Part shown: positions 3,236-51,056 of the stretch, in pieces | Position numbering within the stretch: the stretch's first letter is position 1 | Layout of the letters: the number at the start of each line of letters is the position of its first letter | Assembly (NCBI GenBank): GCA_003584005.1 | Contig: QXHL01000004.1 | Coordinates: 1 to 64,000, forward strand | Length of the DNA stretch: 64,000 nt | Origin: Alicyclobacillaceae bacterium I2511 | Lineage (GTDB): Bacteria; Bacillota; Bacilli; Alicyclobacillales; Alicyclobacillaceae | Direction of reading: 5' to 3' | Program-made: the position numbers and the translations under genes | The notes under the pieces: generated by a model | What the model saw: the letters and a program-made list of their open reading frames with translations, nothing else | What the model was told of the DNA's origin: nothing | Databases searched by the model: none

Positions 3236-3424
3236 AACCATCCCCGCACCTGCCGTGGAACCCTTCGTTTTGAACCTGCTCTCGCAGGTGGGTGTCCTGC
3301 TCAGCAGTTTACAACGTCCACAAGGAAAATCCTCACGGCATGTGTGCACCACCGAGACCTCGAACTCCCCGAAAAATGGTGTTGGCTCAAAACACCTAGG
3401 CTCACACCAACAGCGCAGGGATGC
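3236..3424 (-). ncRNA. ssrS: 6S RNA candidate (SsrS)
   Basis: The gene-free gap between aspS and rarA folds into a 6S-like rod. The closing stem pairs CATCCCTGCGC (3423-3413) with GTGCGGGGATG (3249-3239), 11 pairs including G-U. Inside it, CTGTTGGTGTGAGCC and GTTTTGAGCC on the 5' arm, and GGTTC, AAGGGTTCC and ACGGCAGG on the 3' arm, resemble the order of conserved segments in E. coli 6S RNA, and a central bubble is left open. The length (about 190) is right. From memory, the 6S-1 gene of B. subtilis lies beside aspS, which agrees. 6S RNA mimics an open promoter and sequesters sigma-A RNA polymerase in stationary phase. Exact ends are not known. Confidence 0.7.
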
Positions 3425-7102: not shown

Positions 7103-8557
7103 TCACTCCTGCAGGGCCGTCGTTTTGGACTGGGCCCAATGACGCAGACTGTCCAACAACATTCCCTCTTGCCCTGGCAACAAAGTTCTAGGATCTGCGA
7201 CAACCGCATCATGCACAATACGTGCGATAATCGGTACAGGCGGTACCGTGCGCAGTTGATCAAAAAGTTCTTTGGCGGTCAGGTCCCGCGCCCGCATCTG
7301 CAAACAGCGAGTCGGCAAATCTGTCAAGGGCAACGCACCGCCGCCGATGCGTGATACCGCGTCCACCTGGTCAATTTTCAGTACACTTGAAAGAACCTCA
7401 TCTGTGGCAATTGCCTTTGCTAACCCAGCGACCTTTTCCGCCATCTCTTGGTATGAAGCGGTAATCATACGCACCACGGGCACCTCACGACGCGCCAACT
7501 CCGGATCTTCGTAAGCCGTTAATGTGGCCTCTAGGGCGGCTAGCGTCATTTTGTCCACCCGCAGGGCACGCATCCAGGGATGTCCGCGAAGCTTTGTCAC
7601 GAGGTCCTGCCGCCCCAGGATAATCCCTGCCTGGGCCCCCCCCAATAACTTGTCCCCACTGAAAGACAGCAAATCCACCCCTGCCTTAATGCTGCGCGCC
7701 ACCGTTGGCTCATCCCCCACACCCGCCGCCGGAAAATCAAATAATGCCCCGCTGCCAAGGTCCTCAAACAATGGAATCTGCCGTTGCCGAGCGAGTTCTA
7801 CCAAATCCGTCAGAGCTGGCTGATGGACAAAACCGACAATACGGTAATTGCTCGTGTGCACTTTTAAAATTAAACGCGTATTTTCGCCAAGGGCCTGCTG
7901 GTAATCCCGTAAGTGGGTCTTGTTGCTGGTCCCCACTTCCTTGAGGATGACTCCTGCCTGGGCCATGATGTCAGGGATTCGAAAAGACCCACCGATTTCC
8001 ACCAGCTGTCCTCTCGAAACCACTGCCTCACCACCCTGTGCCAGGGCTCGCAATGCCAGCAGCACAGCGGCCGCATTATTGTTCACCACAAGTGCCGACT
8101 GTGCCCCTGTCAACGCGCACAGCCGTTTCGCTACATGGTCATGACGGGAACCCCGCGTGCCCACATCTAAGTCATACTCCAGATTGCTGTACTGTGAAGC
8201 CACATTGTGCACCGCCTGCAACGCTCTAAAGGACAACGGAGCACGCCCCAAATTAGTATGAATCACCGTTCCGGTAAGGTTCAACACCGGACGCAGGTGA
8301 GAGCTGAGGTGTGCCTCCAATACCCGTTTAGCCCGTGCAAGAATGCTCGCAAACTGAGTCATCTGCGCCCACTCCAACTCGCTGGGCCCTGGGTCTTGAG
8401 CCCACAAATTGCGCAACTGTGTCAGGGCCTCAGCCAGGGACTGGCTGACCAGTGCCAGGGGAAAATCTGCAAAGGTAGCTAAAGTTTGCGGATTCTCAAG
8501 CAGACGTCCAACCGCAGGCAACGACCTTAAGGAAGCATTTTTATCGATGAAAATCAC
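7103..8557 (-). CDS. selA: L-seryl-tRNA(Sec) selenium transferase SelA
   Basis: About 484 residues. SelA is the decameric PLP enzyme that converts seryl-tRNA(Sec) to selenocysteyl-tRNA(Sec) using selenophosphate. Seen here: the N-terminal [16 protein letters not shown] domain that binds tRNA-Sec, [32 protein letters not shown], and the PLP-lysine box [16 protein letters not shown]. Start is uncertain: GTG at 8557 fits the family N-terminus; a GTG at 8596 would add 13 unmatched residues. Nothing else of the Sec pathway is adjacent; tRNA-Sec is at 50960-51056. The UGA stop lies in the palindrome TGAACGCGTTCA (7094-7105) and is followed in frame by a further open reading. Confidence 0.95.
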
Positions 8558-8617
8558 CCTCTGGCTTTCTTGTGTCGATGTACATGAATGTACCACAGTG
8601 CTACCATAAATGCGTTG

Positions 8618-8644
8618 TGCGCCTTTTCCTGGCGCATCTTTTTA
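8618..8644 (+). promoter_or_regulatory. Attenuator-like hairpin upstream of hemL
   Basis: TGCGCC (8618-8623), a 7-base loop, GGCGCA (8631-8636), then TCTTTTTAAATTT. On the plus strand this looks like a small intrinsic terminator placed about 40 bases before the hemL start. It could attenuate hemL or block transcription entering from the selA side. A nearby inverted repeat GTACAT-GA-ATGTAC (8580-8593) may be an operator. No convincing -35/-10 pair for hemL was found. Confidence 0.4.
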
Positions 8645-16857: not shown

Positions 16858-16994
16858 ACCTCTTACCCTCCCGAATCTACTCCGCGGGAAATCCTCGTTG
16901 TGGTTTCGCCGTTGATTGTAACGGTTCCTGCCTGTGCTGCCAAACTTGTACGATAAGAGGTTATCCGAAGCGGGGGGTCAAGGACGCACAAGTC

Positions 16995-17120
16995 ATGCCA
17001 AGTACGGAATGTTTTCGTCCTTCGGGGCAAATGCTTTGGTTTATTGAATACAAGGTTGTGAACAACCGCCAGGGCTGGTACATGGGCGAGTCATTTGATG
17101 AAAATCCGGCGGGTTCCTAG
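16995..17120 (+). CDS. Possible small protein, low support
   Basis: 41-residue open frame whose sequence (LWFIEYKVVNNRQGWYMGES, then FDENPAGS) looks protein-like and is the only plausible gene in the gap 16858-17116. The ribosome binding site is weak (AAGGA 10 bases upstream). Its end overlaps the 3' end of the convergent glycosyltransferase by four bases. No family recognised. Confidence 0.25.
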   Translation: MPSTECFRPSGQMLWFIEYKVVNNRQGWYMGESFDENPAGS

Positions 17121-18391
17121 GCAATCCAGCGGCCCATGTAAAACAAGCCACTGAGGTGAAACAGTGTCCCTACAAAAATCAACAATAACAGCCCCTTTAG
17201 CCAGCGAGAACGCAACCAAGCAGCCAAAAAAGCAAACGCCGGCAACAGCATCAGAGCAAAGCGTGGAAAACTGAGTAAATAATCGCGGGCGGACGGATCT
17301 GTGGAGGCAACAAAGGTAACCAATACCAAGTACAGCCACCAGGCCATCTGCGTCGCGGACAAACGAACGTATTTCCAGCCAACGAAAAGTCCCAAAATAG
17401 CAAACAAGAAACTGGCCGCTTCCAGGCTATAATACTGACTGTACCAGTGCCCCAGAGGTACCGTGAATAATTTGTGTATCGTCTGCTCAAAGCTCCACCA
17501 TGGCCACATAAAGTGCCGCTTCCAGTGGTGCTCCGCCGTCAAGAAGGCAAGAAAATGGTGGAAGCGCAACCGCAGCCAAACCAAGTACAGAAACACACCC
17601 AGTATGGGCCACACAACAGGAAGCACATGTCCACCGATGTCCTGCCACCACCCACCCCCTCAAACCCGCCAGCCATTTCCCTGCGCTCGCACTACTTCCA
17701 CCGCTAAAATACCCACCAGCAAAATGCCAGTGTTGCGTGTCAGGGCGGCCAGCAAAACGGCCATACTTGCAATACCAAACCGCCGCGTGCGGGAAAAATA
17801 GAATACAGCCGCTGACAAAGCAACAAACAAAGACTCTGAATAGACCGCAGCAAAGTAATAGGATGTCGGGAAGAACGCCAAAAGAGCCATTGCATAGTAG
17901 GCTGTTTTTCGCTCAAACACCTCTGCAACAGCCAATCCAAACCAGTCTAGCGCGACCACAAAAAATACTAGAGAAATTACTATGCCTGCTGCTTGATAGC
18001 TGATGCCGAAAACCAGATGAAACATATGCATCAGAGCTGGATATAGTGGCCAAAAGGCGGTCTGGAGTTTACGAGTATACCCCGTTTGGGCAATCTGAAT
18101 AAACCAAGAGGAATCCCAGTGAGCATAGCCACTAATCAGCAGCTGCCGCCATTCCAAAGGAAGGTGATGTTGTAAAGACTGGTGTACTGCCGCCAACAAC
18201 AGCAAAAGTCTCTGAACCACAACCAAACCCAAAGCCAGCCAGAACATTTGCCAAAGCGGGCCTGTCCAAAAACTCAGCCAGCCTTTTGCAGGGCTTGCTT
18301 CAATGGGATCTGCGCTTCCCACTGGCACCCGATTTTGGGCGGCCGATTGAACCGCCATGCTGCTATTTGAACCGATTGTAAAGTCCTGCAA
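17117..18391 (-). pseudogene. PIG-V-like (Mannosyl_trans2) membrane glycosyltransferase interrupted by one in-frame UGA
   Basis: A single frame of 423 sense codons with one TGA at 17660-17662. The first part (18391-17663) has YAHWDSSWFIQIAQTGYTR, with the W-D-x-x-W/Y-x-x-I-A-x-x-G-Y signature, and FFPTSYYFAAVYSESLFVAL, both typical of PIG-V-like mannosyltransferases; the second part (from a GTG at 17626) has RFHHFLAFLTAEHHWKRHF and DYLLSFPRFALMLLPAFAFL, the matching C-terminal half. Summed length fits the family. No frameshift is needed: after UGA the reading GGGWWQDIGGHV joins them. Either a nonsense mutation made a pseudogene, or the UGA is read through; this genome has selenocysteine machinery. 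If not, two separate ORFs would be made. Confidence 0.8.
17617..17662 (-). other. In-frame UGA with downstream SECIS-like hairpin
   Basis: After the UGA (17662-17660) come 15 G-rich bases, then CAGG-ACAT pairs with ATGT and CCTG around an 8-base loop CGGTGGAC that begins 24 bases after the UGA. Bacterial selenocysteine insertion elements sit in this distance range and have a G near the start of the apical loop. The G-tracts (GGG, GGGGG, GGG) on both sides of the UGA could also form a G-quadruplex. G-rich DNA folds easily, so this is suggestive only. Confidence 0.25.
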
Positions 18392-18453
18392 ACAGCGGCC
18401 TCCTCACATCATGAACTGAGCGAGTTTGTTACCCCAGCACGCTCACACTGCCA

Positions 18454-18787: not shown

Positions 18788-19249
18788 TTAGTCTACATCC
18801 CATCGCAGTCGCAAGCCACAGTCCGTATTTTGCAAAAAACCTCCATTTTTATGCACACGTGGTGGTTGAGAGTCCGCAGACTGACCTGGTTTGGGCTTTC
18901 CTTGACCTGGTTCATCCTTGCTTTGACTTTGTTTATCCTTGCTTTGACCTGGCTCAGCCTTGCTTTGACTTGGTTCGGCTTTCTCCTCTTTTTGAGACGA
19001 AATTGGCGTCGCAAAGTTATTGCCAATACTCAGGGTCCCACTAAGTTCTTTGATATCCAACTGACCCAAACGAAATGTGAGTTGTTCTAGAGTAGCCTTT
19101 TCCACTTGTAAATGTTCCACAGTAATATGGACCCGGTTACCCATGGTATCATCGTTCCATTGCGCCATCAGAACCAGCAATTGGTCCAGTTTCTCAACAA
19201 GATCACTAATTTCTTTGCTTTCTTTGTGCCACCCCCACGGCCACTTCAC
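18788..19249 (-). CDS. GerPC-like protein with charged low-complexity insert
   Basis: 153 residues from a GTG at 19249. The first 30 residues form a helix (ISDLVEKLDQLLVLMAQW), then VHITVEHLQVEKATLEQLTF and LDIKELSGTLSIGNNFATPI, a pattern seen in GerPC-like and related spore proteins. Residues about 85-125 are a Lys/Gln/Ser/Glu/Pro repeat in which SQSK-x-EPGQ- and GQSK-like units recur, encoded by a directly repeated CTTGCTTTGACTTGG-like DNA track on the plus strand. The function is inferred from the neighbouring GerP-like gene only. Confidence 0.6.
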   Translation of the reverse strand: MKWPWGWHKESKEISDLVEKLDQLLVLMAQWNDDTMGNRVHITVEHLQVEKATLEQLTFRLGQLDIKELSGTLSIGNNFATPISSQKEEKAEPSQSKAEPGQSKDKQSQSKDEPGQGKPKPGQSADSQPPRVHKNGGFLQNTDCGLRLRWDVD

Positions 19250-50959: not shown

Positions 50960-51056
50960 GGGAGCGGATGGGGTGCTGGTGCCCCTCCCGGTCTTCAAAA
51001 CCGAGTGGGCGACACGGGTTGTCGCCGGTGGGTTCGATTCCCACACGCTCCCGCCA
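50960..51056 (+). tRNA. selC: tRNA-Sec (anticodon TCA)
   Basis: 97 bases including an encoded CCA. Acceptor arm GGGAGCG pairs with CGCTCCC, with an additional base pair position giving the 8-pair bacterial form; D-arm GGGG-tgctggtg-CCCC; anticodon arm CGGT-CTTCAAA-ACCG with anticodon TCA, which reads UGA; a long variable arm (GGGCGAC with GTCGCC) and T-arm GTGGG-TTCGATT-CCCAC. This is the selenocysteine tRNA, the partner of SelA at 7103-8557. It lies between hemY and a Nudix gene. Confidence 0.95.

Follow-up and report, generated by a model that had tools for sequence, protein, structure and literature searches.

An in-frame UGA at a conserved tryptophan position of a PIG-V-like glycosyltransferase gene in a selenocysteine-decoding Alicyclobacillaceae genome

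The DNA analysed in this work (the window) comprises 64,000 nucleotides of one contig of Alicyclobacillaceae bacterium I2511. Its minus strand carries a gene for a membrane glycosyltransferase whose reading frame, from 18391 to 17117, is interrupted solely by a TGA at 17660-17662. Inspection of the sequence and of its open reading frames thus bore out a preliminary description of this DNA, in which a single in-frame UGA had been noted in a PIG-V-like gene. One genome of the same genus, hereafter called the sister, was used for comparison. The gene and the features next to it are the following:

17117-18391, minus strand: PIG-V-like (Pfam Mannosyl_trans2) multi-pass membrane glycosyltransferase gene with one in-frame UGA; 424 codons, then TAG
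18399-18405, minus strand: strong Shine-Dalgarno sequence GAGGAGG, 7 nt 5' of the TTG start codon (from the sequence)
17663-18391, minus strand: region encoding the product expected if the UGA terminates, 243 aa, with the N-terminal HWDSSWF kept and the conserved C-terminal DYLxSxPRxxLMLxP missing (from the alignment)
17660-17662, minus strand: premature UGA at codon 244, where the syntenic orthologue of the sister has TGG (Trp) and each of the 18 closest relatives an aromatic residue
17645-17659, minus strand: G-rich run GGGGGTGGGTGGTGG directly 3' of the UGA, an error-prone type of sequence; identity to the sister falls locally
17117-17659, minus strand: downstream half, free of further stops and conserved to the same degree as the upstream half (dN/dS about 0.08 versus 0.07)
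16965-17096, plus strand: moaA remnant (residues 188-231 only) adjoining the interrupted gene; moaA is complete at this place in the sister

The start codon of the glycosyltransferase gene is a TTG (18391-18389, minus strand), and the Shine-Dalgarno sequence 7 nt before it makes a start at 18391 credible. The N-terminal part of the product matched Pfam model PF04188 (Mannosyl_trans2, PIG-V) with an E value of 5e-10 and 37-40 bits, the curated cut-off being 22.4. No Pfam model was matched by the C-terminal half alone, yet this half could be aligned to full-length homologues over its entire length, the motif DYLLSFPRFALMLLP included. Since one protein of the same genus, 75% identical, matches both halves over their full length, the arrangement of the halves is not due to chance. 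Judged from these matches, the product is a GT-C-type membrane glycosyltransferase related to PIG-V, with a putative mannosyltransferase activity that would use a lipid-linked donor. With the UGA at codon 244 the gene has no intact full-length reading frame.

Gene order is conserved between the sister and about 49 kb of the window, the glycosyltransferase gene included. A scan of GTDB contigs gave one locus only. It lies on a contig of 51,121 bases from a metagenome-assembled Bacillota genome, which was taken to be the same sister. The sister's orthologue is intact, is 75% identical over residues 2-424 and has TGG (Trp) as codon 244. Alignment to it revealed neither a second stop nor a net frameshift in the glycosyltransferase gene, in agreement with the previous observation that no frameshift separates the two halves. 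Across the 18 closest relatives, codon 244 specifies Trp (TGG, 15 cases), Tyr (TAT, two cases) or Phe (TTT, one case), and more distant paralogues have other residues at this position. Cys occupies it in none of the 27 aligned homologues, and no internal stop was present in other homologues among the matches listed in 59 genomes of the order. With intact relatives and a stop unique to this copy, the gene has the pattern of a single-stop pseudogene. Position 244 lies in a loop preceding a WW motif, and in the alignment of homologues the loop after this position is variable throughout the family.

Relative to the sister, dN/dS was about 0.07 before the stop and about 0.08 after it, with a synonymous distance near saturation and a sister too remote for a recent event to be resolved; the measured selection therefore reflects mainly the period before the stop. 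A simple pseudogene had been expected to show TGG without UGA in relatives as well as loss of selection downstream. Only the former was found; the absence of the latter is compatible with a recent stop or an error but does nothing to restore the selenocysteine reading. At sites conserved in outgroups, the window lineage has one change before the UGA (F to V at the adjacent residue 243) and two after it, the sister having none. Within the block shared with the sister, to which this count applies, about 40 genes contain no convincing in-gene stop apart from codon 244; the other stops in these alignments are located before starts or in chance frames. Equally strong past purifying selection on both halves, together with no other lesion, indicates that the stop is either recent or an error in the G-rich stretch. 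Since the downstream half has not decayed, some room is left for a sequence error or for residual readthrough.

The sister has a complete moaA, with radical SAM and Mob_synth_C domains, between the glycosyltransferase orthologue and the next gene. The window retains only about 130 nt of it, just downstream of the glycosyltransferase gene, and two complete copies of moaA lie at other places of the genome (G000:C176 and C161). This spot has thus been subject to gene loss, which is compatible with, but no proof of, a recent pseudogene alongside. The window also contains a 6S RNA (Rfam RF00013, 94.9 bits) at 3237-3424 on the minus strand.

The genome uses the standard code. Across 40 shared genes, Trp positions of the sister correspond to 241 TGG codons in the window and to one TGA, namely codon 244. 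The same count gave one TAG, most likely the one at 18795, which stops a chance frame overlapping with the neighbouring gene. The sole tRNA-Trp found has the anticodon CCA and a 5-bp anticodon stem; it gave no match in a Bacillus-like pattern search and was recovered by an Rfam tRNA search followed by ARAGORN. Neither a tRNA-Trp(UCA) nor a tRNA-Trp with a 4-bp stem was found, and RF2 (prfB) is present in the genome. A reading of UGA as Trp was rejected because of the codon counts, the normal tRNA-Trp(CCA) and the retention of RF2.

With regard to selenium, the genome is a true selenocysteine decoder. SelA and tRNA-Sec, from which the ability to decode UGA had been deduced before, were confirmed, and SelB and a Sec-type formate dehydrogenase are encoded as well. 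The relevant features of the window are:

7106-8641, minus strand: selA (selenocysteine synthase; stop-to-stop coordinates of the open reading frame), part of the Sec machinery
50960-51056, plus strand: tRNA-Sec, part of the Sec machinery
17618-17660, minus strand: hairpin proposed as SECIS; imperfect pairing, no more stable than shuffles

Within its open reading frame, SelA spans 7142-8530. The tRNA-Sec gene is situated between protoporphyrinogen-oxidase-like and Nudix-like genes, about 42 kb from selA. A positive control was available in the gene for the formate dehydrogenase alpha subunit (L044, G000:C207:5348-7213), in which the Sec-type UGA stands in the context DSCNRT-U-HAPSV, with a perfectly paired 7-bp SECIS-like hairpin (GGTCGTC-GGTCT-GACGACC, loop GGUCU) after it. 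In contrast, the best fold of the RNA 3' of the glycosyltransferase UGA is interrupted, and its z scores against shuffled sequence (+0.99 and +0.28) place the hairpin of the preliminary description at chance level. No Cys or redox motif was seen near this UGA in the alignment of homologues; published work describes redox-active Cys positions as the origin of new selenoproteins (PMC1794560). Selenocysteine at 17660-17662 was rejected because the orthologues have TGG or a codon for another aromatic residue, and never Cys, at the position of the UGA, and because the hairpin is no better than chance. Insertion via SelB and a SECIS element has the complete machinery of the genome in its favour, but the chance that it takes place at this codon is negligible. 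The idea of an undescribed selenoprotein did not survive the finding of TGG in the orthologues.

The in-frame UGA is a real observation, but one of an ordinary kind, and no new selenium-containing protein is involved. A nonsense mutation or an assembly error had been offered as the simpler explanation, and both TGG in orthologues and Cys in 0/27 homologues speak for it. We favour a recent nonsense mutation from Trp codon to stop in the glycosyltransferase gene, with a probability of roughly 0.6. The conserved TGG at position 244 would have become TGA, and termination there would leave a 243-residue fragment lacking the C-terminal membrane half. Such a fragment would very probably be inactive, and the gene would be a recently formed pseudogene, or else an allele without function carried by the strain or population that was sequenced. 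We infer that the base is real, that translation terminates at it and that function has been lost.

It is possible, at odds well short of even, that the UGA is an artefact of base calling or assembly in the G-rich stretch and that the organism has an intact gene. The codon directly adjoins the G-rich run, and the block that begins with it is the least sister-like of the gene (43% identity over 51 nt compared with 76% overall), with changes clustered in the 17 codons following the UGA. The C-terminal half shows no damage, the genome is a draft assembly of 232 contigs, and gapped alignment permits a compensating pair of one-base shifts at this place. Such a compensated pair would lie just 3' of the UGA, where the loop is variable. 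The low similarity may stem from the variability of this loop, from a change of several neighbouring bases or from poor sequence within the G-rich run. However, low identity after the UGA is to be expected given that the loop varies in the whole family, and no further suspicious stop was seen in about 40 shared genes. In 17600-17662 (minus strand), the gapped alignment contains an 8-base match to the sister, TGGACATG, shifted by one base.

A stop that is real but leaky appears unlikely. Here a near-cognate tRNA-Trp would read UGA inefficiently, and the little full-length enzyme formed would be kept by selection; even less likely is that the UGA acts as a leaky switch, with a small amount of full-length glycosyltransferase made by tRNA-Trp misreading and retained by selection. 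Near-cognate misreading of UGA would restore Trp, which is precisely the residue replaced, and the downstream half appears to be selected. In-frame stops in otherwise selected bacterial genes have moreover been reported to be widespread (PMC7918605). Against readthrough, the stop is conserved in no relative, most of the measured selection may predate it given the near-saturated synonymous distance, and the anticodon stem of the tRNA-Trp has the usual 5 bp, whereas forms associated with the reading of UGA have 4 bp there (PMC13092985). If true, readthrough would provide one more case of residual expression across a nonsense codon. A two-piece gene, in which the first half stops at the UGA and translation of the second starts anew from GTG 17626, 12 codons downstream, was rejected as very improbable. 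Its only support is the 169-aa open reading frame that begins at this GTG soon after the stop; no convincing Shine-Dalgarno sequence precedes the GTG, the split form occurs in no relative, and no functional split at this loop is known in the PIG-V-like family.

The case cautions that a Sec-decoding genome does not make every in-frame UGA a selenocysteine codon. The residue found at the same position in relatives (Trp versus Cys), together with a positive control from the same genome, allows such cases to be settled quickly. With bacterial selenoproteins such as the formate dehydrogenase alpha subunit, the glycosyltransferase gene has in common an in-frame UGA and a Sec-decoding genome; it differs from them in that its homologues have Trp, not Cys or Sec, and in having no above-chance SECIS and no redox site. 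The gene resembles single-stop pseudogenes and the bacterial in-frame stops described previously (PMC7918605) in that one nonsense substitution affects a conserved gene with low downstream dN/dS. Unlike the stops of that study, the one described here is common to no relative, so that conservation does not suggest readthrough. With PIG-V-like membrane glycosyltransferases (PF04188, GT-C superfamily) the gene shares the N-terminal HWD and the C-terminal DYLxSxPRxxLMLxP motifs as well as a match above the curated cut-off, but it alone has a UGA stop in place of one conserved Trp codon.
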